Part shown: positions 8,824 to 23,770 of the stretch, piece by piece
Position numbering within the stretch: position 1 is the stretch's first letter
Layout of the letters: each line of letters begins with the position of its first letter
IMG/VR virus record: IMGVR_UViG_3300042908_000287
Location: 1 to 38,558 of that record
DNA length: 38,558 nucleotides
DNA from: a virus
Direction: 5' to 3' (one strand)
Made by a program: the position numbers and the translations under genes
The notes under the pieces: model-generated
What the model was told of the DNA's origin: nothing
Databases searched by the model: none
The model's input: only the letters and a program-made list of their open reading frames with translations

Positions 8824-8951
8824 TGACTTCGTTCACTTATAAACACGGGTTGCATGGGGTTATCTGCAAACCATTTTAATTTTATTAAATAATCGCGCAT
8901 GGCTTGATAACGCAAGCCGCCTGATGGTTTACCACTTTTAAATTCATACAT
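8820..8951 (-). CDS. 43-aa hypothetical protein
   Basis: Reads MYEFKSGKPSGGLRYQAMRD and continues to SERSQ. The start overlaps the stop of the DUF3310 gene by one base (TAATG), and its own stop overlaps the next start (ATGA), so it lies in a translationally coupled chain. This linkage is the main evidence that it is real. Basic, soluble, no motif recognised. Confidence 0.5.
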   Translation of the reverse strand: MYEFKSGKPSGGLRYQAMRDYLIKLKWFADNPMQPVFISERSQ

Positions 8952-9418
8952 TACACGCCCTCTTTTTCTTTTAACTTATCAAAATACCACTGCGCCTTTT
9001 TTAAATCCTCAGCACCGTTTTTTTGCTTATAACGCCATTGATATTTTAATATGTTCCCGCGTAAAAATCCGATAAATTCTTCTTTGGTTAGCATAGATTC
9101 AATTGCGTCAATACATTCAACATTGCCGCTGTTATAGTGCGCTGGTGAGTTTACGGTTTCTTTTTGCTTGTTTAGGTGTTTGATGACATTATCCAATCGA
9201 ACAGGTGAACATTCAACAGGTGGCGGCAATTCTTCATAGCTTGTCAATGTGTACAAATACGCATTGTCTATTCTATCAGCAGATTTATGCACAATGCCCT
9301 CCTTGATTAACTTTTGAACCTTAAATTCCACTTGATGTTGTTTTAAATCTGTTAGCTCGGTTATTTCGCGCATTGTCATGCCTTGACGGTTTCCGAGCTG
9401 AAGAATTTGCTGAATCAT
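8951..9418 (-). CDS. DUF3310 protein with N-terminal winged-helix-like segment
   Basis: 155 aa. The C-terminal 65 residues are a clear DUF3310 domain: VNSPAHYNSGNVECIDAIE, EFIGFLRGN, KYQWRYK and DLKKAQWY. The N-terminal 55 residues (MREITELTDLKQHQVEFKVQ, then LIKEGIV) look like a small winged helix. DUF3310 proteins are common early phage proteins, sometimes annotated as nucleotide kinases without proof. The HTH fusion suggests a nucleic-acid-binding role, which is inference. Coupled to the upstream gene by ATGA. Confidence 0.75.
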   Translation of the reverse strand: MIQQILQLGNRQGMTMREITELTDLKQHQVEFKVQKLIKEGIVHKSADRIDNAYLYTLTSYEELPPPVECSPVRLDNVIKHLNKQKETVNSPAHYNSGNVECIDAIESMLTKEEFIGFLRGNILKYQWRYKQKNGAEDLKKAQWYFDKLKEKEGV

Positions 9419-12557: not shown

Positions 12558-12573
12558 TTTGTTCTCCTAAAAT

Positions 12574-12591
12574 GCGCGGCTTGCACCGCGC
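12574..12591 (-). other. GC-rich hairpin between two leftward genes
   Basis: Stem GCGCGG / CCGCGC with a 6-nt loop, followed on the minus strand by ATTTT and then the AGGAG of the gene at 12557. It may weaken transcription or protect the downstream message. The T-run is too short for a confident terminator. Confidence 0.4.
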
Positions 12592-12602
12592 TTTGTTGTT
12601 AT

Positions 12603-12815
12603 TTATGCTGTAATGATCGGACACATTGAATAAGAGCCCCAAGGCTTTACGGTTTCGTTATCAGCCCATAATTTAATTCTTAGTGTTTTTTCTACGCCAT
12701 CAACTAAGGCTTTGATACTTTTTTCTGTTCTTGAAATAACAGTAATTTCAAAAAACATATCGCTGTCACAAATTGATCTGCATTTGTAGATTTTGTTTGG
12801 TTCAAATTTACTCAT
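12603..12815 (-). CDS. Small conserved-type phage protein (YSMCPIITA ending)
   Basis: 70 aa, AGGAG 6 nt before the ATG. Opens KFEPNKIYKCRSICDSDMFF and has EITVISRTEKSIK, ending in PWGSYSMCPIITA. Proteins with this plan (F-x-PG-K-x-Y...RSICD...S-RT-KS...G-YSM-PII-A) are common in mobile elements and phages but have no assigned role. First gene downstream of the operator at 12892. Confidence 0.7.
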   Translation of the reverse strand: MSKFEPNKIYKCRSICDSDMFFEITVISRTEKSIKALVDGVEKTLRIKLWADNETVKPWGSYSMCPIITA

Positions 12816-12891
12816 GTTGCTCTCCTAAATTATTTTATTATTGTTTCGCCTTCTTGAAAGCGTGGTTATATATTAAATGTTCTTTTTAATC

Positions 12892-12911
12892 TTGTAAATT
12901 ATAATTTACAA
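12892..12911. promoter_or_regulatory. Operator palindrome, perfect 20-bp copy
   Basis: TTGTAAATTATAATTTACAA is a perfect palindrome, the best of four copies in the window. On the minus strand it contains TATAAT (12903-12898), placed to serve the gene at 12815; the -35 is poor (TTTTTA or TTTTAT). A short hairpin (12847-12862) lies in the predicted leader. About 125 bp around it hold no gene. Confidence 0.75.
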
Positions 12912-12940
12912 AATAAATAAATAAAAAAGTAAAAGTTAAA

Positions 12941-14263
12941 TTATTTCAATGAGTTAAAAACAGCATCTTGTACCTTTTCTTTATTTTTTAACGCGGCAAG
13001 CACTGCCGAATCTATTGTTTTATCGGCTAAAATGTAGTGAATAAACACCGTTTTTGTTTGTCCCTGCCTGTGAATTCTCGCGTTAGCTTGCTCAAACAAC
13101 TCAAGAGAATGCGTTAACCCGTACCACACAACCACATTGCCGCCCTGCTGCAAGTTTAATCCATGCCCAGCACTAGCAGGATGACATGCAAGCAATGGGA
13201 TTTTACCTGCGTTCCAGTCTTTTACTTTTTGCTCTGAATTGTCCTGAAGCGTTTGCACATAAGCAAACCGTGATTTTATCTTTTCTAAATCAGCTTTAAA
13301 TGTGTAAAACAAAAGAATAGGCGCGTTGGTTTCACTTATGATTGATTCAAGAGCATCAATCTTTGCATCGTGTAAATGTAGCGCGTTTTTGTTTTCATCA
13401 TAAAGAAAGCCGTTTGCGATCTGAATGCACTTTCCAACAAGCACAGCCGCGTTAGCAACAGCAATCGTCTCTTTGCCAACTTCAACAATCAACTCTTTGC
13501 GGATCTCTTTATACGTTGCGTGAGCTGCTGGCGACATATCAACCATTACTTCATTGTGAACAACGGGCGGCATATCTAAATAATCAGCGGCTTTCATTGA
13601 TAAGCATATATCATCAATTTTGGCTGTTATTTCGCTCATGGCGGATGGTTTAGGCTTAAACGTGTACTGATTATAGCCAACGTCAAACCATTGCAATCTA
13701 AACGCGCTAACGGTCTTAAATAGACGCGCACCACCATCAAGCAAAAAAAGTTGCGACCATAAATCATGAACCGAGTTTGCAGCGGGTGAACCTGTCAACC
13801 CAACCACGCGCTCAATGTTTTTGCATAATGCTTTAGAGGCTTTAAAACGTTGGCTTGAATGGCTTTTTAAAAGGCTAAATTCGTCAAATATCACCATGTC
13901 GTATTTACGCTTTATTGCACTATCTTTAACAAGCCAAGACAAACAATCAATATTGATAACGTGAATTTGTGCATCACTTTGCAACGCGCTTAACCGTTGC
14001 GCTGGTGTACCAACACAAATGCTAAACGTGAGATGCTGGAGATGCGCCCATTTTTGCGCTTCATTGTGCCAAACCGTTTTGGCAACACGCAAAGGCGCAA
14101 CAATTAAAACCCGTTGCGGGTTTATGTCAGCAATAGCCGTTAACGCGCTTACAGTCTTACCTAAGCCGCATTGTTGAAATAATGCGCACTTAGGCGTTGA
14201 TTTTATTTTATCAACGCTTGTGACTTGATATGCGTGCATTTGTGAGCGCGTTAACGTTTTCAT
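12941..14263 (-). CDS. SNF2-like superfamily 2 DNA helicase/translocase
   Basis: 440 aa. Helicase motifs are in order: CGLGKT Walker A (32-37), APLRVAKTVW motif Ia (56-65), DEFS in place of DEAH (127-130), GLTGSP motif III (155-160), GHGLNLQQG motif V and QANARIHRQGQ motif VI near residue 395. It couples ATP hydrolysis to movement on DNA, and in phages sits beside VRR-NUC nucleases and DUF2815/DUF2800 proteins, as here. Length is usual for the minimal phage form. It starts 1 nt after the stop of the gene at 14265. Likely used in replication or recombination; the substrate cannot be read from sequence. Confidence 0.9.
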   Translation of the reverse strand: MKTLTRSQMHAYQVTSVDKIKSTPKCALFQQCGLGKTVSALTAIADINPQRVLIVAPLRVAKTVWHNEAQKWAHLQHLTFSICVGTPAQRLSALQSDAQIHVINIDCLSWLVKDSAIKRKYDMVIFDEFSLLKSHSSQRFKASKALCKNIERVVGLTGSPAANSVHDLWSQLFLLDGGARLFKTVSAFRLQWFDVGYNQYTFKPKPSAMSEITAKIDDICLSMKAADYLDMPPVVHNEVMVDMSPAAHATYKEIRKELIVEVGKETIAVANAAVLVGKCIQIANGFLYDENKNALHLHDAKIDALESIISETNAPILLFYTFKADLEKIKSRFAYVQTLQDNSEQKVKDWNAGKIPLLACHPASAGHGLNLQQGGNVVVWYGLTHSLELFEQANARIHRQGQTKTVFIHYILADKTIDSAVLAALKNKEKVQDAVFNSLK

Positions 14264-14264
14264 A

Positions 14265-14522
14265 TTATTGATTAAAAAATAAATTGAAGATTGGGTTTAG
14301 TGCTTTGTTAAACGTGTAATTTTCTAAATCATGTTTTGATCTAAAAATAACTTTAAATCCATCTTCATCATTAACTTTAACTTGCAGCACTTGGGTTGCT
14401 CCTTTGCCTTCTCGATGCTCAATTCCTTTTTGATCTAAAAATTGAACAAAGTCATCAAATAAAAAAACAGGAAAAAGATTAGTGTCGTAAAAATAATTTT
14501 TAAAACTTTCATCAATTTTCAT
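14265..14522 (-). CDS. Hypothetical protein between nuclease and helicase
   Basis: 85 aa from the ATG at 14522, which overlaps the VRR-NUC gene by 11 nt and has AGGAG upstream; a longer frame to 14546 has no ribosome site. Sequence is mixed alpha/beta: FPVFLFDDFVQFLDQKGIEH, REGKGATQVL, DGFKVIFRSK. No motif recognised. Its place between a nuclease and a helicase gene, with overlaps on both sides, suggests it works with them. Confidence 0.6.
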   Translation of the reverse strand: MKIDESFKNYFYDTNLFPVFLFDDFVQFLDQKGIEHREGKGATQVLQVKVNDEDGFKVIFRSKHDLENYTFNKALNPIFNLFFNQ

Positions 14523-14808
14523 GGTCAATGAACTCCTTGCAATCAAAAATAAATTTATCTACTTCATCTTTAGATGATAAAACATTTACCTGCACACCTA
14601 ATTTAAATCTTGTTGCGTGGTCATGTAGTTGAGCTTTTGTTGGTGATTCGCCATTGGCTTTTAATTCAACAAGCAACATCAACCCATGCGGTAGTGTGAC
14701 TAATCTATCAGGCACACTACGATTAGCCGGTGACGTAAACTTTTCACACAAGCCACCGATCTCTTTTACTTGTTTGCACAAGTATTGTTCAATTTCTTTT
14801 TCTAACAT
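14512..14808 (-). CDS. VRR-NUC domain nuclease
   Basis: 98 aa, the normal size of stand-alone phage VRR-NUC proteins. Key residues of this PD-(D/E)XK-type fold are visible: E6 in EIEQYL, GG at 18-19, VPDR (32-35) with the catalytic Asp, VELK (47-50) and Q60 in KAQLHDH. Such nucleases are proposed to cut structured DNA such as Holliday junctions. It heads a three-gene run with the protein at 14265 and the SNF2-like helicase, an arrangement repeated in many phages. Confidence 0.88.
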   Translation of the reverse strand: MLEKEIEQYLCKQVKEIGGLCEKFTSPANRSVPDRLVTLPHGLMLLVELKANGESPTKAQLHDHATRFKLGVQVNVLSSKDEVDKFIFDCKEFIDHEN

Positions 14809-14825
14809 ATCAATCCTTTAAAACT

Positions 14826-14862
14826 AAAAAACCAACTATCAAGGATTACTTGACAGTTGGTT
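14826..14862 (-). terminator. Strong intrinsic terminator after the DUF2815 gene
   Basis: On the minus strand: AACCAACTGTCAAG, loop TAATC, CTTGATAGTTGGTT (14 pairs including one G-U), then a run of T. With the promoter at 15482-15511 it makes the DUF2815 gene a one-gene unit. Confidence 0.85.
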
Positions 14863-14892
14863 AAAATCAAATAACCATCAAATAAACATCAA

Positions 14893-15417
14893 TTAAAAAT
14901 CATCGTCATTTTCATCATAAGAATCAAAGTCATCAACCGACGCATCACCACCGCCAAACCGTTCACCTTGTTTAAATAACTGCACTGCGATCAAATTACA
15001 ATTAATGCGTTTGCCATATGAGTTATCTTGAAACCAAAAGTCAATTTTAACATTGACATAATCACCGCTAAAAATGCGTTCATCTTCTTTTGTGAGTGTG
15101 ACCTTTTGTTGGTCAATGACAATGGGGCGTTTTTTAGTTGACCCTTTAATGCTCATGCAACCTGCATAACCGTCATAATCTTGCATATCACCGTCCATTA
15201 ACGGCTGTTTGTAAAGTTTAGGCACTTTACCTGCGCCAAACTTTTCAACGGCAAAATCAGCAATTGTTTTTTCAATCAATTTAATGGTGTCAGCGTGTTG
15301 AGATTTATCGAGGAGAAACGTTGCGGCATATTTGCCAGTGCTTTCTTGGTTGTATTCTTCATGTTCAAAGAGTGAAGCAAAAGAAAGACGAACGTTTTTT
15401 AACATAATTGCAGCCAT
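14893..15417 (-). CDS. DUF2815 single-stranded-DNA-binding protein
   Basis: 174 aa. Opens MLKNVRLSFASLFE and contains KYAATFLLDK, the DGDMQDYDGYAG stretch and SGDYVNVKIDFWF, all typical of the DUF2815 family, which has an OB-like fold related to T7 gp2.5. The last 20 residues are very acidic (DDFDSYDENDDDF), as in SSB proteins that recruit partners through their tails. It should coat single-stranded phage DNA during replication and recombination. It has its own operator-controlled promoter and its own terminator, so its dose appears to be set separately from its neighbours. Confidence 0.88.
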   Translation of the reverse strand: MAAIMLKNVRLSFASLFEHEEYNQESTGKYAATFLLDKSQHADTIKLIEKTIADFAVEKFGAGKVPKLYKQPLMDGDMQDYDGYAGCMSIKGSTKKRPIVIDQQKVTLTKEDERIFSGDYVNVKIDFWFQDNSYGKRINCNLIAVQLFKQGERFGGGDASVDDFDSYDENDDDF

Positions 15418-15459
15418 GATATTTTTCCTTTTATGAATTTAGAAATTTAAGAATTTATT

Positions 15460-15475
15460 GCCTTACTGTTAAGGC
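15460..15475 (-). other. Hairpin at the predicted 5' end of the DUF2815 message
   Basis: GCCTTA / TAAGGC with a 4-nt loop (ACAG on the minus strand). The transcript from the promoter at 15482-15511 should start close to 15475, so the hairpin would form the extreme 5' end of the mRNA, where stem-loops often slow decay. Confidence 0.5.
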
Positions 15476-15476
15476 G

Positions 15477-15511
15477 TGTAAATTATAATTTACATCAATC
15501 AAAATCGTCAA
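15477..15511 (-). promoter_or_regulatory. Leftward promoter with overlapping operator palindrome
   Basis: On the minus strand TTGACG (15511-15506), an 18-bp spacer and TATAAT (15487-15482) form a near-consensus sigma-70 promoter for DUF2815. The perfect palindrome TGTAAATTATAATTTACA (15477-15494) covers the -10 box, so a bound regulator would block RNA polymerase. The stop codon of the upstream gene at 15495 lies inside the promoter. Confidence 0.78.
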
Positions 15512-16616
15512 GCACATTTTTTAATGCTGGGCGTTTATCGTCAATAGTTGCAAGTGTTGGACTTCCTGCTAGTGTTGCGTAAAGGTTTGAAAACATTGGC
15601 TTATCTTCTTTGCTGATTAGTTTTTCAGCCTGCGCAACACTAATTAATTCGCTTTTAATTGGGTTGATATTCATAGCAGTTAATGCGCTTTTAATTGCAT
15701 CATCGTCAGCGTTCCACTTGCGTGAGTTTCTGCCGGCTACCAGTTTATAGCCTTTGAGCTGATCTGCATTAGCCAAATCATAAGCGTGTTCTTTTACGCT
15801 CTTAATCCATGATTCAATCAATGGCAAATTAGGGAGTATTTGCGCAATCTGCTCAGGCGTTAAACTCTCAACCGCAAGTAATTGCGGTTCATTTGTTATT
15901 TCAAAATCAGACGTGACAACCTCAAACGTTTTTTGTGCTAATGCTGCGCAAGTGGGTTTAGCTGCGCACCACATACAACCCTTTTCAGTCGGATTAAATG
16001 GCGCATTAACATCAAGTGTTGCTTCAGCTCGTAGTTTTACTTCATCTCCAAACGCAAGCAATTCATCAACTGTAATTTCCCAACTCGTTACGTTATCAAT
16101 GCGTGGCTGGTGAATGTGCATTTTTATAAATTCAATATCATAGATATGAGCAAATAAATCATATGCACCCAGCGCGTAAAGTTGCGCCTGTGTGTTATTC
16201 CGTGCATACACAGCAACGCCTTTGCCATATTTTAAGTCGATAACATGAATTGTTTTATTATCTTCATCAATAACAATCGCGTCAGCCGTTCCAAATCCTT
16301 CATGCACCCAACGGCTAAAGTCCACACGTTGCTCAAATAGCAACACGCCACCAACGGCATTGACATAATCAACGTATTTTTGAACGTGCATAGCCATGTC
16401 ATCTGTTACGACAAAACCATTAAATTTTAATCCAAAATAATGCGCTGCGGGTTTAGCTGTCATTAAGCATTTTTCGGAAAGCTCATGCGCAGCTGTTCCT
16501 TCAGCAGCAAATGTAGACGAGGTGTTTGGCAGGTTCTCACACATACGAACTGACGCTGGGCAGTTAATCCAGCGTTCACTTGATGATGCGCCTAATTTTG
16601 CGTGTTTAGTTGTCAT
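15495..16616 (-). CDS. DUF2800 protein, RecB/Cas4-like nuclease
   Basis: 373 aa. The N terminus has the family signature HAKLGASSSERWINCPASVR and AAEGTAAHELSEKCL. A PD-(D/E)XK core is seen as GTADAIVIDED followed by HVIDLKYGKG. Near residue 215 the cysteine set CMWCAAKPTC resembles the iron-sulfur cluster of Cas4/AddB-type nucleases. It is probably a DNA exonuclease acting with the DUF2815 protein in recombination, much as lambda Exo works with Beta; that partnership is inference from recurrent linkage. It starts 11 nt inside the end of the upstream gene. Confidence 0.82.
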   Translation of the reverse strand: MTTKHAKLGASSSERWINCPASVRMCENLPNTSSTFAAEGTAAHELSEKCLMTAKPAAHYFGLKFNGFVVTDDMAMHVQKYVDYVNAVGGVLLFEQRVDFSRWVHEGFGTADAIVIDEDNKTIHVIDLKYGKGVAVYARNNTQAQLYALGAYDLFAHIYDIEFIKMHIHQPRIDNVTSWEITVDELLAFGDEVKLRAEATLDVNAPFNPTEKGCMWCAAKPTCAALAQKTFEVVTSDFEITNEPQLLAVESLTPEQIAQILPNLPLIESWIKSVKEHAYDLANADQLKGYKLVAGRNSRKWNADDDAIKSALTAMNINPIKSELISVAQAEKLISKEDKPMFSNLYATLAGSPTLATIDDKRPALKNVLDDFD

Positions 16617-17043
16617 TTTTTTTAGCCTTTAGCATTTCGTTTAAAGCTTCAACTGCCATCGTGCAAACTCTGCCATAATCACGCGGATCTAAATCAACCG
16701 TTTTTTCAACGTTAAACTTGCGTAATATTTCCAGTGATATTTTACGGCTGTTTGTTTTAATGCTCAGTTGCTTCAGGCAATCTTTTACGCCTTCTAGCGT
16801 TTCTTTACTTTCAACTGCTACCTGTTCACGTTTTTGCGTTTGCGGCTGTGGTGGCGTATTATCCACCGCCACAACATCAACGCCCAAATGCTCCTCAATA
16901 GTCGGATTGTTAATTGATTCAAGCGCAAAACGCTCTTTAACAATCAACGTTTGCAGAAACTCTGCTTTAATGATTAGTTGGTCATGCTCAAGCTGCAAGC
17001 GCAATATTGACGCGGTTCTGATTGATAATTCTTCTTTGTTCAT
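16606..17043 (-). CDS. Hypothetical protein, first gene of the leftward block
   Basis: 145 aa, GGAG 7 nt before the ATG. Residues 1-45 are helical (ASILRLQLEHDQLIIKAEFL). A low-complexity linker follows (TPPQPQTQKREQ), and the C-terminal 60 residues form another helical region (LEILRKFNVEKTVDLDPRDY, GRVCTMAVEALNEML). No family recognised. Its overlap with the DUF2800 gene suggests the two products cooperate, perhaps with this one as a small accessory subunit. It is transcribed away from the operator at 17081. Confidence 0.65.
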   Translation of the reverse strand: MNKEELSIRTASILRLQLEHDQLIIKAEFLQTLIVKERFALESINNPTIEEHLGVDVVAVDNTPPQPQTQKREQVAVESKETLEGVKDCLKQLSIKTNSRKISLEILRKFNVEKTVDLDPRDYGRVCTMAVEALNEMLKAKKNDN

Positions 17044-17072
17044 AAAATAACTCCGTTGCTTTTAAAAAAGTT

Positions 17073-17098
17073 TGTTATAATGTAAAATATAATTTACA
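17073..17098 (+). promoter_or_regulatory. Divergent control region: extended -10 promoter and operator copy
   Basis: TGTTATAAT (17073-17081) is a full extended -10 element for the rightward block; no good -35 is seen, as is usual for such promoters. The operator copy TGTAAAATATAATTTACA (17081-17098, one base off the palindrome) starts at the last base of the -10 and covers the expected start site. A leftward start for the gene at 17043 probably lies here too (TATATT, minus strand 17091-17086) but is weaker. Confidence 0.65.
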
Positions 17099-17125
17099 AC
17101 ATAAACAACAAAAGGTAAAGAAAAA

Positions 17126-17311
17126 ATGCAAGATTTTATAAATGAGCTTCAAGACTTACTCAAACAGCATGACGGGATAGCATTGCGCAAGATAGCTGCG
17201 CTATGTCATGTCAGTTTTATGACGATCTACAACATCAAGAACGGCAAAACCGACAACGTGACGCTATTTACCTATAACAAAATTAAAAAAGGATTAAAAA
17301 ATGTTAAGTAG
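17126..17311 (+). CDS. Small Cro-like helix-turn-helix regulator
   Basis: 61 aa, AAAGG before the ATG. Residues 18-45 make a compact HTH: GIALRKIAALCHVSFMTIYN followed by IKNGKTDNV, with the usual small residue and hydrophobics at core positions; a last helix is YNKIKKGLK. No dimer or effector domain, so it resembles Cro rather than CI. It lies immediately downstream of an operator copy and is the only dedicated transcription factor I can recognise in the genome. It is therefore the likely ligand of the four palindromes (inference). The next gene starts inside its 3' end. Confidence 0.78.
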   Translation: MQDFINELQDLLKQHDGIALRKIAALCHVSFMTIYNIKNGKTDNVTLFTYNKIKKGLKNVK

Positions 17312-19763
17312 CGTTTATGATGATTTAGATAGAAACGGTTACACCATTACGCCCGCAAATGGTAAGCGACCACTTGGTAACGGTTGGCAACATCGAGAAA
17401 ATGACCCGTCTTGGAAGAAATATGCGGCTGATAAAAATGTCGGTATCGTGCTGGGTGATCGTTTAATCGCTATTGATATTGATATATTAAACGAGGACAT
17501 GGCTAAAAGCGTTCTGGCTAGTGCGCAATCGGCTTTTGGCTTTGCGCCTGTTCGGTTTGGCAATAAGCCTAAATGCTTAATGCTGATTAGAATTAATGAA
17601 GCAATGACTAAGCACAAAATAAAATTTAAGTTTGATGGACTGGAAAATCCAGCCATTGAGATTCTTGCAAACGGTCAACAGTTTATTGCGTATGGCACAC
17701 ACCCAGATACTAAAAAGCCTTATGTATGGGATTTAAACGCAGGTGACGAGCCAATCAACACCACAATTGATGAATTGCCAAGCGTTAATGTTGAGCAGGT
17801 TCGTGCGTGGCTTGTGTCGCTTAAGCCGATGCTTGAGCAATTCGGGGCGCATGATGTGACGTTTGATGGGTTTACGCCTGACAACGTGCAGAAAGTATTG
17901 CCGGTAAACGTTGGTGTTATTGACAATGATGACCCGTTTGCTGGTGTTTATGCTGAAATTGGTAATGATGAAATTGCAGAAATGCGTGAAAAGTTGCGTA
18001 TTCAAAAAAGATTTAATGCGGATGATTATGACGATTGGATAAAGGTAGGTTTAGCGTTAAAAGATTTTCACGCGGTTGTTGGACTTGAATTGTGGAAAGA
18101 ATGGTCAAGCACTGGAAGTTATGACGGCAGTGAATGTGACGCAAAATGGCATGGGTTTAAAAACAACGGTGGCGCAAAGATTACAACAGGCTCTATTGTT
18201 TACGCGGCTAAAGAAGTCGAAAGCAAGCAGGCATCACAAACGCTTTCACAACTGATTGCAAATTGCACGGATGTTTCAGATATGCAAGGAAGCGTTGCAG
18301 ATGCAATAAGGAGCGATATTAGCCTTTCAGATATTGCACGAGCAACTATTATTGGCGAATGGCGAACACGTTATAAGATTTTAGCAAACGTGGGTATTTC
18401 AATTAGTGATGCTCGAAAATTATTAACGCCTTCAAGAAATAGCCAATTAGTTGAAAATGCACCCGCGTTTTGCAAACATTGGATATGGCTTAATGATCGT
18501 GATCGTTTTTATAATGTGGATACAAAAGAGGAAATAACAAAGCAATCGTTTGATGCAAACTTTACGCGAAAAATTATGGGGGATGATGCAGAAAGTGGAA
18601 ATATTGGAGCTGCTAATTTTGCGTTAAATAATAATCATATCCCTTGCTTTAGCCGAGCAGTGTATATGCCGCAAAATCAGCAGTTTTTTGAGCTTGATGG
18701 GGTTCAATGCGTTAACTCATTTTCGGTCAATAGTTTACCAGAAACGCCAAATAAAATCACGCCTGAAGCAATGCAGGAAATACAGCCAGTCATTGACCAT
18801 ATAGCCAATTTATGCGGAAAACGTGAGAAGGAAACGCAATGGTTAATGGATTTTATTGCGTATAGCACACAGAACATAGGAAAAAAAATTAAACACTCAC
18901 CATTAATACAAGGTTTTGAAGGCGATGGCAAAAGCACCATAGCCGATGTTATCGCGTGTTGCCTTGGTGGGCGTAACGTGAAGCCGCTGCCGCCTACAGC
19001 ACTTCAAGACAAGTTTACCGGATGGGCAGAAGGTAGTTGCATGGTAGTGCTTGAGGAATTGCGCGTTGCTGGGCATAACCGTTTTGATGTACTTGATACC
19101 ATTAAGCCAATGATAACCAACGACACCATCGACATTCGCAGAATGAACCGTGATAACTATTCGATTGTGAACGTAACTAATTATATTGCTTTTACTAATC
19201 ACCGCGACGCATTGCCGTTAAACGATCATGATAGACGCTGGGGGATAATCTTTTCACCTTACACTGACATTCATGACATGTCGCGTGATGTGGGCGACAT
19301 TTACGAATATTTCGGAAAGATACGAAACGCTATATCAAATTTTGGCGGTGATATTAGACGGTTTTTTCTTGATTTTAAAATTAGCGATGATTTTAAAGCG
19401 TATGGACATGCGCCAATAACCGATGAAAAACGCTCAATGATTGCAGCAGAAAAAGGCAGTGAGCTTTTAGACTTAATTGAGTTTATTAAAAAAGGTGGTT
19501 ATGGCTACAGCACAAGCATTATTTCAAGCTCGCTTTTAACAAAGGCAATCGAAAATAATTCGTTTTCAGATTATGAATTTCCAGAAATAAACCACAAGAA
19601 TATGCGGAGGATTTTTGAAAATATGGGTTATATGAAAGTGGATAAGCGAGTTAAATGGAATGGAATCCCTCATCGGGTGTGGGTAAAAAAAGCAGCGGAT
19701 TTTGATAATGACCGATGCCGTCAACTTTTAAATGAAACTTTATCTGTTGATGATGACTTTTAA
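17301..19763 (+). CDS. Primase-polymerase fused to SF3 (P4/D5-type) helicase
   Basis: 820 aa, overlapping the HTH gene by 11 nt, AAGGA upstream. Domain order: Prim-Pol (residues 1-190) with metal-binding D59-x-D61 in AIDID, RFGNKPK (85-91) and the QQFIAYGTHPDTKKP segment; a PriCT-2-like domain around 230-310 (DDYDDWIKVGLALKDFH, LWKEWS, KWHGF); and an SF3 helicase with Walker A GFEGDGKST (538-546), a Walker B-like VVLEEL near 583 and NHRDALPLNDHDRRW around 635-648. It primes DNA synthesis and unwinds the template, so it is the central replication protein. No phage DNA polymerase gene is present; the host enzyme is presumably used. Iterons follow directly downstream. Confidence 0.92.
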   Translation: MLSSVYDDLDRNGYTITPANGKRPLGNGWQHRENDPSWKKYAADKNVGIVLGDRLIAIDIDILNEDMAKSVLASAQSAFGFAPVRFGNKPKCLMLIRINEAMTKHKIKFKFDGLENPAIEILANGQQFIAYGTHPDTKKPYVWDLNAGDEPINTTIDELPSVNVEQVRAWLVSLKPMLEQFGAHDVTFDGFTPDNVQKVLPVNVGVIDNDDPFAGVYAEIGNDEIAEMREKLRIQKRFNADDYDDWIKVGLALKDFHAVVGLELWKEWSSTGSYDGSECDAKWHGFKNNGGAKITTGSIVYAAKEVESKQASQTLSQLIANCTDVSDMQGSVADAIRSDISLSDIARATIIGEWRTRYKILANVGISISDARKLLTPSRNSQLVENAPAFCKHWIWLNDRDRFYNVDTKEEITKQSFDANFTRKIMGDDAESGNIGAANFALNNNHIPCFSRAVYMPQNQQFFELDGVQCVNSFSVNSLPETPNKITPEAMQEIQPVIDHIANLCGKREKETQWLMDFIAYSTQNIGKKIKHSPLIQGFEGDGKSTIADVIACCLGGRNVKPLPPTALQDKFTGWAEGSCMVVLEELRVAGHNRFDVLDTIKPMITNDTIDIRRMNRDNYSIVNVTNYIAFTNHRDALPLNDHDRRWGIIFSPYTDIHDMSRDVGDIYEYFGKIRNAISNFGGDIRRFFLDFKISDDFKAYGHAPITDEKRSMIAAEKGSELLDLIEFIKKGGYGYSTSIISSSLLTKAIENNSFSDYEFPEINHKNMRRIFENMGYMKVDKRVKWNGIPHRVWVKKAADFDNDRCRQLLNETLSVDDDF

Positions 19764-19772
19764 TTGCTTAAA

Positions 19773-20038
19773 GGTACCAGTAAAAAAGTTGGGTACCGGT
19801 AAAATAATTTTACTGGTACCTAATCAATGCCTTGTATTATCTATATTTCTACCCTAAAGGTACCAAGTACCAGTAAATATAGAATTAAAAAGAATAAATA
19901 ATAAAAATAAAAAATTTTATAATAGGGAATAGGGTTTTAAAAAAACCGGTACCTGTTTTTTACCGGTACCTTTGCCGTCAAACACTAATAATCATGCAGG
20001 ATGCAGAGGTACCAGTAAATGTGACCTTTACTGGTACC
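19773..20038. repeat. GGTACC-x-GTAAA iteron array, candidate replication origin
   Basis: At least seven copies of a 12-bp unit, GGTACC(A/G)GTAAA, occur in both directions. Direct: 19773-19784, 19792-19803, 19866-19877 (AGTACC variant, preceded by GGTACC at 19859), 20008-20019. Inverted: 19809-19820, 19959-19970, 20027-20038, plus a partial at 19943-19953. Two pairs form large palindromes (19792-19820 and 20008-20038). Between the clusters, 19878-19940 is almost pure A/T. Iterons beside an AT-rich stretch and next to a P4-type primase-helicase gene are what an origin bound by that protein should look like. No gene lies in 19764-20265. Confidence 0.65.
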
Positions 20039-20058
20039 TTTTGATTTTGTATTAATAA

Positions 20059-20087
20059 TTGACAATTATAATTTACAAAGTTATCAT
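20059..20087 (+). promoter_or_regulatory. Rightward promoter with operator copy in its spacer
   Basis: Consensus -35 TTGACA (20059-20064), 17-bp spacer, TATCAT (20082-20087). The operator variant TTGACAATTATAATTTACAA (20059-20078, two changes from the perfect palindrome) spans the -35 and most of the spacer. It should drive the terminase/head operon from a start near 20094. Confidence 0.75.
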
Positions 20088-20093
20088 TTAATT

Positions 20094-20262
20094 AACCAAC
20101 CAACTCAGAAATCACTTTATGGCGATTTATCAATAACTGGGTTGGTTGGTTTTAACCATGAAGAATTAAACCCTAACGCGTGTCCTCTTGCACGAAAAAA
20201 AGACGGGAGCAGTTTTACCGCAGCATTTCTGATAATTTTGCAATGCGGGGTTATGGTTTAAT
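20094..20262 (+). other. Structured, apparently untranslated leader of the late operon
   Basis: The predicted transcript starts at a 15-bp inverted repeat, AACCAACCAACTCAG (20094-20108) with CTGGGTTGGTTGGTT (20137-20151), one G-U pair and a 28-nt loop. A second hairpin pairs CC..GCATT (20218-20227) with AATGCGG (20242-20248). A reading frame without ATG is open from about 20025 to 20261 and gives protein-like text (ELNPNACPLARKKDG), but no ribosome site supports it. It may be a regulatory RNA or attenuator. I see no tRNA. Confidence 0.4.
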
Positions 20263-20292
20263 TACTTGATGGTTAACTTAACAGGAACAAGA

Positions 20293-20517
20293 ATGAAAAA
20301 CACACTAACAGATTTAAACAATCATTTATTTGCTCAAATGGAAAGATTGAGCGAAGAATCATTAAGCGTTGAACAACTGGCTTTTGAAGCAGAACGCTCA
20401 AAAAGTTTGACGATTATTGCGCGTACAATTGTGGATAATGCGCGTTTAGTCCTTGATGCACAAACACGCATTAATGATATTCCAGAACGCAAAGAGCTGC
20501 CTGCTATTTTAAAATGA
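20293..20517 (+). CDS. Small conserved-type phage helical protein
   Basis: 74 aa from the ATG at 20293, chosen for ACAGGA 7 nt upstream; an in-frame upstream ATG at 20269 lacks one. Plan: TDLNNHLFAQMERLSE, then FEAERSKSLTIIARTIVDNA and an alanine/leucine helix. Proteins with L-x-x-HLF...L...E-x-x-R-x-x-x-I-x-x-x-A-x-x-I-x-x-x-A are frequent just upstream of HNH and terminase genes in phages; function unknown. Overlaps the HNH gene by ATGA. Confidence 0.75.
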   Translation: MKNTLTDLNNHLFAQMERLSEESLSVEQLAFEAERSKSLTIIARTIVDNARLVLDAQTRINDIPERKELPAILK

Positions 20518-20951
20518 ACAGCGGGCAGTTTGAAAAAGGGTTTACGCCTTGGAATAAAGGATTAAAAGGCGTCAATGGGGAATCGGAAAGCAGATTTAAA
20601 AAAGGAAATGAAACATGGAACACTCGACCATTAGGTGATGAGCATGTTGATAATGATGGGTATATTCGTGTTAAAGTGGCTGAAACAGGAACAAAAAGAG
20701 AACGTTGGAAATTAAAGCATCGTTTGATTTATGAGCAGCATTATGGCGAAATATCGCCAAGCATAATTATTAGGTTTTATGATAATAATAAACAAAATTT
20801 TAATATTGAAAATTTATATGCGGTAACAAAAGGCGAAAATGCTGTTTTAAATCGTTTAAAATTTGCAAATGAACCACTTGAATTAAAACCGACAATATTA
20901 GCAATGGTTAGAATGTGCTTAAAAGCTAAAATACCTTATAGGATTACTTGA
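20514..20951 (+). CDS. HNH endonuclease
   Basis: 145 aa. The N terminus has the family's tandem F-x-KG-x-x-P-x-NKG and F-KKGN-x-x-W-N motifs (FEKGFTPWNKGLKG, FKKGNETWNT), then DNDGYIRVKV, KLKHRLIYEQHYG and IRFYDNNKQNFNIENL. H and N of the beta-beta-alpha-metal site are present (KHR, NNKQNF, ENL), though the DH pair is reduced to IRF. HNH proteins beside terminase genes often nick DNA to assist packaging; others are homing nucleases. Tight overlaps with both neighbours favour a phage role over a recent insertion. Confidence 0.75.
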   Translation: MNSGQFEKGFTPWNKGLKGVNGESESRFKKGNETWNTRPLGDEHVDNDGYIRVKVAETGTKRERWKLKHRLIYEQHYGEISPSIIIRFYDNNKQNFNIENLYAVTKGENAVLNRLKFANEPLELKPTILAMVRMCLKAKIPYRIT

Positions 20952-21457
20952 TGCAAATCACACAACGTAAAACTGCGGATTTAATACCGTATGTGAACAA
21001 CGCACGAACACACAGCGAACAACAAGTGTTGCAGATCGCGGCAAGTATAAAAGAGTTTGGTTTTAATTCGCCCGTGCTGGTTGACGGGGAAAACGGCATT
21101 ATTGCAGGTCATGGGCGCGTGTTGGCGGCTAAAAAGTTAAATCTTGATGAAGTCCCAACCATTGAGCTTAAACACCTCACCAAGACGCAAAAGAAGGCAT
21201 ATATCCTTGCAGATAATCGTTTGGCGTTGAATAGTGGATGGGATAATGATTTGTTGGCGTTAGAGCTGGGTGAATTGTCTGATGACGAGTTTGATTTGGA
21301 TTTGCTTGGGTTTGATGATACTGAATTAAACAAATTTGATAATGAAATAAACTTTGATGCAGGAAATGAAGAAGATCAAGGGAAATTAGATAAATTAGAT
21401 CCAAAATACATAAATTGTCCACATTGTGGAAAAGAGTTTGATAGTCGTGAAGCATGA
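20951..21457 (+). CDS. ParB-like N-domain protein with C-terminal CPHC knuckle
   Basis: 168 aa from the ATG at 20951 (one-base overlap with the HNH stop). ParB/Srx-like features: NNARTHSEQQ (16-25), SIKEFGFNSPVLVD and GIIAGHGRVLAA (49-60), the GxxR segment that binds nucleotide in this fold, then ADNRLALNSGWD. The acidic middle ends in KYINCPHCGKEFDSREA, half of a zinc ribbon. In other phages this domain is fused to, or next to, a DNA methylase; here the DNA modification gene follows instead. It may guide or regulate that enzyme. A role in partition is unlikely without ParA or parS. Confidence 0.8.
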   Translation: MQITQRKTADLIPYVNNARTHSEQQVLQIAASIKEFGFNSPVLVDGENGIIAGHGRVLAAKKLNLDEVPTIELKHLTKTQKKAYILADNRLALNSGWDNDLLALELGELSDDEFDLDLLGFDDTELNKFDNEINFDAGNEEDQGKLDKLDPKYINCPHCGKEFDSREA

Positions 21458-22136
21458 ATTAAAAATAGATTTTGCTACTCATGAAGCCGCAAAATATGCG
21501 TGTGAAAATTGGCATTACAGCAAATGTATTCCAGTTGGCAAACTTGTAAAAATTGGCGCATGGGAAAATGGTAAATTTATAGGCGTTGTTATTTTTGGAC
21601 GTGGCGCAAATAAAGATGTTGGAAAACCTTACGATTGCGATCAAACAGAATGTGTTGAATTAGTAAGAATTGCATTAAAAAATCATTTAACTCCAGTTAG
21701 TAAAATTATGATGATAGCAATTAAATTTTTAAAAAAAACAAATGAAAATATAAAGTTAATTGTTTCATTTGCAGATCAAGAACAAGGACATCATGGCGGA
21801 ATATATCAAGCAACTAATTGGATTTATACTGGAACAACAACGCCAGCAGAAGAATATTTTTATAATGGAAAACGTTATCATGGAAGAGCCTTTAGAAAAC
21901 AACACGGAAGTCATAAAAATTATTTAAATAAAGGCTTAAAAATTATCATGGGATCATCAAAACATAGATATTTAATGCCATTAAATGATAATATAAAACA
22001 AAAATTAATGTTATTATCAAAACCTTATCCAAAGCGTGGCACAAAGGCTATTTCTAGCGACCAGTTAGAAAGCGGAGGTGCAATCCCTACCGCCACGCTC
22101 CAATCATTAGGAGAACCAAATGGCTCTCACACCTAA
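21447..22136 (+). CDS. mom: Mom-like DNA adenine modification protein
   Basis: 229 aa from a GTG at 21447 overlapping the ParB stop; no ATG is available near the N terminus. The sequence carries the pattern I know from Mu Mom homologues: NWHYSKCIPVGKLVKIGAWE, IFGRGAN, ECVELVRIAL, VSFADQEQGHHGGIYQATNW and KHRYLMPL, ending in PYPKR and a tail with GGAIPT. Mom has a GNAT-like fold and converts adenine in DNA to an N6-acetamido/carbamoylmethyl form, which blocks many restriction enzymes. Length fits. Likely expressed with the packaging genes so that DNA is protected before it is packaged. A Mu-like Com activator gene is not seen. Confidence 0.85.
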   Translation: MKHELKIDFATHEAAKYACENWHYSKCIPVGKLVKIGAWENGKFIGVVIFGRGANKDVGKPYDCDQTECVELVRIALKNHLTPVSKIMMIAIKFLKKTNENIKLIVSFADQEQGHHGGIYQATNWIYTGTTTPAEEYFYNGKRYHGRAFRKQHGSHKNYLNKGLKIIMGSSKHRYLMPLNDNIKQKLMLLSKPYPKRGTKAISSDQLESGGAIPTATLQSLGEPNGSHT

Positions 22137-22539
22137 ACAAGAACGCTTTGCACAACTCGTTGCAGAAGGCAAAACACAGGCTGATGCTTATCGTGGGGCG
22201 TTTGATACTAAGCCAACAACTAAGCCTGAAACGATCATTGCTAACGCGTCACGGCTAATGGCTGACAGCAATATTTCAGCAATGGTTGACGAGCTACGCA
22301 AACCAATCATTGAAGCCGTTGGCATTACGCTTGAATCGCATTTAAAAGACTTAATGACGTTGCGCAACCTTGCTGTAAAAAACAATCAAATTAACGCGGC
22401 AATTACGGCTGAAATTGCCAGAGGTAAAGCAGCAGGCGTATCAACAGATCGTGTTGAAGCAACTATAAAAACAGCCTCAATAAAGAAATTTGAGTTTATT
22501 GAGGATGACGGATTAGATGACGATGACGACGAAGATTAG
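22120..22539 (+). CDS. terS: Terminase small subunit
   Basis: 139 aa, AGGAG 6 nt before the ATG, overlapping mom by 17 nt. N-terminal HTH typical of TerS: LTPKQERFAQLVAEGKTQAD, AYRGAF, then ASRLMADSNISAMVDEL. The middle is a helical oligomerisation region, and the C terminus is acidic (DDGLDDDDDED). It recognises the packaging site on concatemeric DNA and hands it to TerL. The large-subunit gene starts within its last codons. Confidence 0.9.
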   Translation: MALTPKQERFAQLVAEGKTQADAYRGAFDTKPTTKPETIIANASRLMADSNISAMVDELRKPIIEAVGITLESHLKDLMTLRNLAVKNNQINAAITAEIARGKAAGVSTDRVEATIKTASIKKFEFIEDDGLDDDDDED

Positions 22540-23770
22540 AGTAAGCATTCCGCAAAAAAAGTTCATTAATTCAAAATCAACACATCCAGCAATGGTTGCA
22601 GGATATGGAGCGGGAAAAAGTCACGCGGCAGTGTTAAGGATTATTAAACTTGCATTACAATATCCAGCAATGGATTTTGGTTTTATTGAGCCGACATACG
22701 ATTTAATTAGATTGATTGCGTTTCCACGCTTTGAAGAAATACTGCAAAAACTTGAGATAGAATATAAATTAAATCGAAGTGATGCGACCATCAAACTAGA
22801 GAACGGTTCACAGATAATATTTAGATCGGCTGACAACCCAGAGCGTTTGGTTGGGTTTGAAGTTGCTGACGCGGTGATAGATGAAGCTGATACGCTACGC
22901 ATAGACCAAGCAAGAACAGTATGGGTTAAAATGCTTGGAAGATGCAGACAAAAGAAACCAGACGGGAGAAAAAACACTCTTGCGGCAGTATCAACACCAG
23001 AAGGTTTTGGTTTTATGTATGAGACTTGGGGAAAAGAAAAGCGCAAAGGATATAAGCTAATCAAAGCTCCAACAAGCTCAAACAAAAGGCTTCCTGCTGG
23101 ATATGTTGACCAATTAAAGGCAACCTATTCAAGCGCACAATTATCCGCGTATCTTGATGGCAATTTTGTTAATTTAAATGCAGGAAGTGTTTACCATGAA
23201 TTTGACAGAAATCTTAATTCATCCATTGAAGTTATTAATTCAGACGATGTTTTGCATGTTGGGTTGGATTTTAACGTTTCCAATATGTCTGCTGTTATTC
23301 ATGTATTGCGCGGTGACAGCGTTCATGTTGTTAATGAGCTCACTGGCGTGTTCGATACGCCAACAATGGCGCGGTTATTAAAAGAACGCTACCCAACGCA
23401 CAGGATTTTAATTTATCCTGACGCAAGCGGTAACGCTCGAAAATCAAACAACGCAAGCGAATCAGATCACAGCATTTTGCGCTCGTATGGGTTGCAAGTG
23501 TTGGTTAATTCACGCAATCCATTCATTAAAGATCGCGTGTTATCAGTTAACGCCATGATTCACAATTTAGGCGCAAGACGTTATTTTGTTAATGCGCAGT
23601 ATTGTCCAATGCTGGTTGAATCACTTGAAAAGCAATGCTATGCAAAAACGGGTGAGCCTGACAAAGCTGGTGGGTTTGACCACGTTGTTGATGCAACAGG
23701 TTATTTTATTGCGTATAGATACCCGCTAGTGAATAATAGGCCAACATTTGCAGCAATTACAGGAATTTAA
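22517..23770 (+). CDS. terL: Terminase large subunit (packaging ATPase and nuclease)
   Basis: 417 aa. ATPase: Walker A GYGAGKS (29-35) and Walker B VIDEAD (121-126). RNase H-like nuclease: D252 in HVGLDFN, D303 in YPDASG and the FDHVVDA segment (389-393). Length is usual for the compact form of the family. It pumps DNA into the prohead through the portal and cuts the concatemer. The start lies inside terS (23-nt overlap), so the two are probably translated together. Confidence 0.95.
   Translation: MTMTTKIRVSIPQKKFINSKSTHPAMVAGYGAGKSHAAVLRIIKLALQYPAMDFGFIEPTYDLIRLIAFPRFEEILQKLEIEYKLNRSDATIKLENGSQIIFRSADNPERLVGFEVADAVIDEADTLRIDQARTVWVKMLGRCRQKKPDGRKNTLAAVSTPEGFGFMYETWGKEKRKGYKLIKAPTSSNKRLPAGYVDQLKATYSSAQLSAYLDGNFVNLNAGSVYHEFDRNLNSSIEVINSDDVLHVGLDFNVSNMSAVIHVLRGDSVHVVNELTGVFDTPTMARLLKERYPTHRILIYPDASGNARKSNNASESDHSILRSYGLQVLVNSRNPFIKDRVLSVNAMIHNLGARRYFVNAQYCPMLVESLEKQCYAKTGEPDKAGGFDHVVDATGYFIAYRYPLVNNRPTFAAITGI

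Follow-up and report, generated by a model that had tools for sequence, protein, structure and literature searches.

Four copies of one palindrome stand in the intergenic regions of a single phage genome, and the question raised by this locus is which protein reads them and to what effect. The genome is IMG/VR record IMGVR_UViG_3300042908_000287, whose 38,558 nucleotides were analysed as one stretch (referred to as the window). The 18-mer TGTAAATTATAATTTACA and close copies of it occupy four sites, named here S1 to S4, and a gene coding for a helix-turn-helix (HTH) protein of 61 amino acids (aa) lies next to one of them, on the plus strand at 17126–17311. We consider it probable (roughly 0.72) that this protein is a Cro-like, autoregulated, dimeric repressor that binds TGTAAATTATAATTTACA at four promoters, a reading built on sequence comparison. 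The identity of the ligand, its dimeric state, the sign of the regulation and the order of affinities are what we infer. Control from four sites is of a familiar kind; the present case is a well-formed example of it, unusually clean and conserved.

S1 (12892–12911) is a perfect palindrome of 20 base pairs (bp) with an exact copy of TGTAAATTATAATTTACA starting at 12893, and S2 (15477–15494) is a perfect palindrome of 18 bp that is again an exact copy. S3 (17081–17098), found in a divergent intergenic region, has one change relative to TGTAAATTATAATTTACA and S4 (20059–20078, with the 18-mer at 20060–20077) has two. No strand is assigned to the sites, and TATAAT can be read in all four. An earlier note, made from the letters of the sequence alone, had placed four copies of the palindrome at these positions, which was borne out by a mismatch scan: across the whole record of 38,558 bases the 18-mer occurs with three mismatches or fewer only at S1–S4. 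The 20-mer gave four matches in the window at the same threshold for 0.03 expected, while shuffles in which coding and non-coding sequences were kept apart gave 0.11 matches of the 18-mer per shuffle, with a maximum of two in 100 shuffles. By the gene list of the analysis, non-coding sequence makes up 5.5% of the window, and all four sites are within it. Equally good sites inside genes, which the note had named as an observation that would speak against its proposal, were looked for at up to three mismatches in the record and none was identified.

The position of the sites relative to transcription signals was assessed from a promoter scan of the segment 12000–20600, which yielded 24 promoter-like matches versus 26.9 expected in shuffles. 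As the number of matches does not exceed the shuffle expectation, only the two matches with 11 of 12 positions, located on S2 and S4, stand out. The −10 and −35 positions underlying the operator registers given below are predictions. The central TATAAT of S2 is the −10 of a predicted minus-strand promoter TTGACG-18-TATAAT (15511–15482), one of the two best of the 24 matches, which serves a gene for an Enc34-type single-stranded DNA (ssDNA)-binding protein and is kept in the two diverged relatives L014 and L065 (see below). The left half of S4, TTGACA, is the −35 of the other best match, the predicted plus-strand promoter TTGACA-17-TATCAT (20059–20087) that precedes the packaging genes. At S1 the half-site TTTACA (12898–12893, minus strand) forms the −35 of a weaker predicted minus-strand promoter, TTTACA-17-TAATAT (12898–12870; 9 of 12 positions), preceding the gene at 12815. 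S3 adjoins the predicted extended −10 TGTTATAAT (17073–17081) of the transcript that carries the HTH and primase genes and spans about −7 to +11 if transcription starts 7 bases after the −10. This promoter has no evident −35, and on the minus strand nothing convincing as a promoter turned up across S3. The proposal that each copy lies at a promoter is supported, as all four are on predicted promoters; S3, previously placed over the extended −10, overlaps it by a single base. Presence of a site at the predicted promoter of the HTH gene itself is what autoregulation predicts. If transcription starts 7 bases after the predicted −10, the operator centres are estimated to lie near −39 at S1, −11 at S2, +2 at S3 and −26 at S4.

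Eleven IMG/VR contigs encode the HTH protein with 90–100% identity. All site positions covered by these contigs (38/38) are occupied, and there are no extra copies at up to three mismatches. The scan of relatives suggested by the earlier note came out in its favour: each contig of the phage group in which the HTH gene is encoded has a site at every position it covers, and this holds for two contigs that have diverged to 86% and 77% nucleotide identity. In the first, L014, which has 86% identity across the region, all 72 site bases are kept, as against 500 of 611 other bases of the intergenic regions (Fisher p 1.3e-6). The second, L065 (77% identical, four sites), is a contig binned in a Methylomonas metagenome-assembled genome (MAG); it keeps 66 of 72 site bases compared to 481 of 714 in the rest of the intergenic regions (p 2.8e-6). 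S4 accounts for five of the six changes in L065, its first three positions having been gapped in the alignment. S1 is unchanged (18/18) in both L014 and L065, and S3 is identical in 11/11 contigs as well as in L065. S4 differs from the consensus by two mismatches, the most among the four sites, in all lineages seen.

In our view, no other single observation argues as strongly for an operator as the variation found at S4. Five contigs (G003, G004, G005, G008 and G009; group B) carry a 71%-identical version of the segment 18228–20150, which runs from the part of the primase gene coding for the C-terminus into the next intergenic region, and have a different S4. In group B and in L065 the site reads [GA]GTAAATTATTATTTACA, with the −35 of a predicted TTTACA-17/18-TATAAT promoter provided by its right half TTTACA. 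In the window and in the other contigs it is the left half TTGACA that provides the −35, of a predicted TTGACA-17-TAT[CT]AT promoter. The assignment for group B is based on the promoter registers of L012, L013 and L065 and on the alignment of L007, L008, L023, L012 and L013. The S4 operator and the promoter are shifted relative to each other between lineages, with the −35 still covered.

Exact copies of the 18-mer were found in 30 IMG/VR stretches, 14 from the phage group and 16 from about seven unrelated sequences. Among the loci compared outside the phage group, none gave a relative of the HTH protein (best E 0.78, in L027). The open reading frames (ORFs) of six of the 16 unrelated stretches were viewed: the site lies just before a gene in L033 and L039 and follows no pattern in the others. 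The exact 18-mer of L033 (6251) and L039 (4433) is positioned between a TATAAT and a gene start of an unrelated phage, in contigs with no HTH relative. The unrelated exact copies are taken as chance occurrences; those of L033/L039 may be due to chance or to a shared host factor.

Apart from the 61-aa HTH protein, no clear small HTH regulator was recognised in the window by a Pfam scan of all 55 listed genes and by PHROGs and NCBIfam scans of part of them. The protein matches PHROG 7126 (E 3.8e-7) and PHROG 13059 (E 1.8e-6), has no Pfam family at 1e-3, and gives a weak match to a DeoR model in NCBIfam (E 0.002). Its AlphaFold2 model (predicted local distance difference test score, pLDDT, of 89) has four helices (residues 2–13, 17–26, 31–38 and 47–58). 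Structural matches include the XRE/Cro-type proteins HipB, C.Esp1396I, AcrIIA15, P22 c2 and 434 Cro (Z 5–6.7), and the KL1 regulator is the fourth-ranked match in a viral structure library. The protein encoded at 8951–9418 shows a weak MarR-like match (E 0.008) that is below cut-off. No CI-like or integrase families were found in the Pfam scan of the 55 genes.

Homologues of the HTH protein (62 aa, 29–41% identity) are encoded by Septimatrevirus phages (Kakheti25 gp37, phage 73, gp37 of DLP1/DLP2), by the Kilunavirus KL1 and by FtMidnight (gp33); the FtMidnight match had an E of 4e-4 with 43% identity, and jumbo Erwinia phages were also matched in the search that gave it. In FtMidnight, Septimatrevirus, Kilunavirus and others the homologous gene occupies the equivalent position, facing away from replication genes and sharing 11 bp with the primase gene. 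This small HTH gene also precedes the primase gene in many phages of Pseudomonas, Stenotrophomonas and Burkholderia. A symmetric motif TGTNAA-N6-TTNACA is present upstream in all homologous loci studied in phage DNA, and in nine of them (L014, L056–L062 and L065) it lies at most 80 bp from the HTH gene. Its TGTCAA-N6-TTGACA form is present upstream of the homologues of Kakheti25, KL1, FtMidnight, GZ35, VCLv11, Epa40 and L062, and in PSV3 it is located 188 bp upstream of the HTH gene, before a partial extra gene copy; together these carriers amount to about three independent sequences. In 11 loci with a seemingly unrelated small HTH gene before a related primase gene, TGTNAA-N6-TTNACA was not found in the 260 bp upstream by a scan that required exact six-base outer arms, and other palindromes were met in L077, L081, L105 and L110. 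The geometry thus appears to go with this HTH family, an association that is confounded by −35 boxes. Six Septimatrevirus-type genomes have one full element each and three to five partial matches (two arm mismatches), and a search for dispersed elements in these genomes showed no regulon. One partial copy of KL1 (L057, at 36282) is intergenic and follows directly on the primase gene, the place held by S4 in the window. A search of plasmids with the Epa40 HTH protein gave no match, and neither a description of this operator nor a binding test for the HTH family was met in searches of the open-access literature. The idea that one small regulator acts on several early and late units is supported by the restriction of the sites to promoters, by their conservation and by a site geometry related to the HTH family.

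A temporal scheme can be proposed for the repressor. The HTH protein and the primase would be expressed jointly from the divergent region; as the HTH protein accumulates, it would bind the 18-bp palindrome and block RNA polymerase at four promoters. Its targets would be its own promoter (S3), the gene of the ssDNA-binding protein (S2), an accessory minus-strand unit (S1) and the packaging/structural unit (S4). A dimer covering 18 bp would overlap RNA polymerase at each of these promoters. If affinity follows agreement with the consensus, S1 and S2 would be the tightest sites, followed by S3 and then by S4, whose higher number of mismatches suggests the weakest binding and the latest shut-off. 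Packaging would then be shut last or only damped.

Several observations weigh against this scheme or limit its support. A near-palindromic 18-mer of any sequence reached four copies in 1/100 shuffles and three copies in nine more, and family size alone has a p of ~0.01; copy number is only moderately surprising and the weight of the argument rests on position and conservation. The 11 contigs are for the most part near-duplicates, so that independent lineages number about four. The fold matches of the HTH protein are weak (best E 0.2 in the PDB and 0.05 in the viral library; Z at most 6.7) and so establish a general HTH fold and no more. The TGTCAA-N6-TTGACA element of Septimatrevirus, Kilunavirus and FtMidnight also reads as back-to-back −35 boxes, which could explain it with no operator required, and the partial matches in these genomes are mostly inside genes (by the annotation, intergenic in 0/3 cases in Kakheti25, 1/3 in KL1, 1/5 in FtMidnight and 1/3 in Epa40). 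The note had held that absence of the sites from relatives with the same HTH gene would be damaging: they are present throughout the phage group, but L066, a bacterial MAG contig with a 40%-identical HTH match, has no site at up to three mismatches in 20 kilobases (kb). Finally, the operator centres of S1, of group B S4 and of L065 S4 are near −39, where activators also bind.

This last position is the basis for a possible dual role of the HTH protein: repression at S2 and S3, and class II-type activation at S1 and, in group B and L065, at S4. In each of the sites proposed for activation, the right half-site is the predicted −35. Three of the four operator centres are at classic repressor positions, while S1 and group B S4 could suit an activator. 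We consider a dual role unlikely because the S4 centre of the window, near −26, lies inside the promoter where activation is not expected, and orthologous promoters should share one sign of regulation. Alternatively, the palindromes might be promoter sequence only, made of overlapping or bidirectional −10 and −35 hexamers with an incidental symmetry. TATAAT is found in each site and a predicted −10 or −35 hexamer falls within S1, S2 and S4, but the conserved positions include some that no promoter needs. The same 18 bases are moreover used in differing registers (−10, left half as −35, right half as −35, start site), an arrangement that promoter function alone does not predict and that makes this explanation highly improbable. 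The window also encodes a ParB-like protein (20948–21457) and the sites might be partition or replication elements, bound for instance by this protein. They are spread over 7 kb, one per promoter region, and do not form a cluster; the Pfam match of the ParB-like protein is to ParB_N alone with an E of 9e-5, below the Pfam cut-off, and a repeat array at 19770–20041 is a better replication candidate. We regard such a function as extremely unlikely.

The remaining alternative assigns the sites to a regulator of the host, with the aromatic amino acid sensor TyrR as the leading candidate; TyrR would then gate phage replication and packaging by nutrition. According to PMC4374768, the TyrR box is TGTAAA-N6-TTTACA, is strong when at least 10 of 12 positions match and has an essential G-N14-C. 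The arms of the palindrome are those of this published box: in sequence and spacing the window sites score 12, 12, 12 and 10 of 12 and their variants 11–12, all with G-N14-C, and the Septimatrevirus-type elements score 10. Phage sites for a host regulator have a precedent in those for CtrA in some phages of Alphaproteobacteria (PMC9437464). The putative host bin has one chromosomal place (C45) with exact TyrR-box arms. However, TyrR is a host protein: the Pfam scan of the window revealed no TyrR, and the bin has none above the cut-off. The Methylomonas MAG is the only hint of the host, relies on binning, which is weak evidence, and belongs to a set of genomes whose completeness is not given. 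It has one match to the TyrR HTH domain PF18024, which scores 24.2 bits (cut-off 27) and lies in a 98-aa frame read as Fis. Among three genomes of the genus, including the bin, one is over the cut-off by half a bit (27.5 bits, 90-aa frame) and the third reaches 22.4 bits (451-aa frame). Outside the phage contig the bin has no copy of the 18-mer at 0–1 mismatch, and TyrR-box arms with at most one mismatch are found at 44 places, four of them in the phage contig, versus 33 in the reversed control, which is no clear excess. The TyrR definition also yields five further "strong boxes" in the window, all within ORFs. At S1 and S3 of L014 and L065 there is no change in the six inner bases, which a TyrR box does not constrain, and the site geometry is linked to the HTH gene family. 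Reading by such a host regulator in place of the phage protein is thus quite unlikely. Joint use of the four operators, as sites of the phage repressor and as strong TyrR boxes of the host, is very unlikely; if true, host nutrition would time the release of the replication and packaging genes. Boxes for NrdR, Fur, FNR, LexA and similar regulators were provisionally set aside.

The Cro-like repressor proposed here shares with the lambdoid Cro and Cro/C1 (XRE) repressors a small HTH fold and palindromic operators positioned over core promoters, including its own. The lambda operators are arranged in tandem in one switch region, whereas those of the window are single and dispersed over several units. 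PY54 Cro, a phage Cro-type protein, is described in PMC4488713 as a lytic repressor with a single operator and high operator specificity, to be compared with four sites here. The Septimatrevirus, KL1 and FtMidnight systems (PHROG 7126 / 13059) have in common with the window a homologous protein, the divergent layout, the 11-bp primase overlap and a symmetric upstream element. They differ by having one full element per genome, a TGTCAA instead of a TGTAAA half-site and a different recognition helix. The label of DLP1/DLP2 gp37, "transcriptional regulator", is based on its similarity to the KL1 protein (PMC4559383). Casjensviridae-type phages (BcepNazgul, JS26 and IMG/VR relatives) also have a small gene directly before the primase gene and divergent from an exonuclease unit. 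We read its product from the sequences as an HTH protein, YdaS-like and, compared by eye, apparently of a different HTH family; no matching palindrome is found upstream.

The end of the HTH gene overlaps by 11 bp the start of the plus-strand gene coding for a Prim-Pol / PriCT_2 / DUF5906 primase-helicase (17301–19763), with which it is presumably co-transcribed. On the other side of S3, a divergent 145-aa ORF (16606–17043, minus strand) is the first of a minus-strand unit starting at 17043 that includes a DUF2800 / PD-(D/E)XK exonuclease gene (15495–16616, minus strand). The gene downstream of S2 codes for the Enc34-type ssDNA-binding protein (PF10991; 14893–15417, minus strand) and is followed by a terminator-like hairpin (14862–14830). 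The first gene downstream of S1 is a 70-aa ORF (12603–12815, minus strand). Homology to several relatives breaks just below S1, within 12558–12822, so that different sequences are found downstream of the same operator; S1 looks like a possible landing platform for accessory genes.

The first genes downstream of S4 (20266–22136, plus strand) encode an 83-aa ORF, an HNH endonuclease, the ParB-like protein and a Mom-family protein, after which the terminase genes are found (22120–23770). The 83-aa ORF (20266–20517) matches PHROG 2044, labelled "RNA polymerase beta subunit", a doubtful label for so small a protein. The Mom-family protein (21426–22136; PF25680, E 3e-47) suggests phage DNA modification. 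Between the primase stop codon and the packaging promoter lies an array (19770–20041) of AGGTACC[AG]GTAAA-type repeats in both orientations that is origin-like in its sequence; some relatives have GGTAAC versions at this place, as if the copies change together. A long hairpin (AACCAACCAACTCAG / CTGGGTTGGTTGGTT; 20094–20151) is found just after S4 in the contigs aligned there, and its left arm is at least partly present in L065. The record has no exact terminal direct repeat of 15–200 nucleotides, which leaves the circular genome assumed in the earlier note without confirmation, and no tRNA genes were detected in it. A near-identity search of the window in phage records gave no match. Relatives of the terminase and exonuclease among the GenBank matches listed come from many hosts, all with less than 60% identity and none close enough to name the host.

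The shift of register at S4 is a natural experiment on how the position of an operator evolves while control is kept. For this HTH family, here in an uncultured phage group, an operator sequence and its likely ligand are now proposed.

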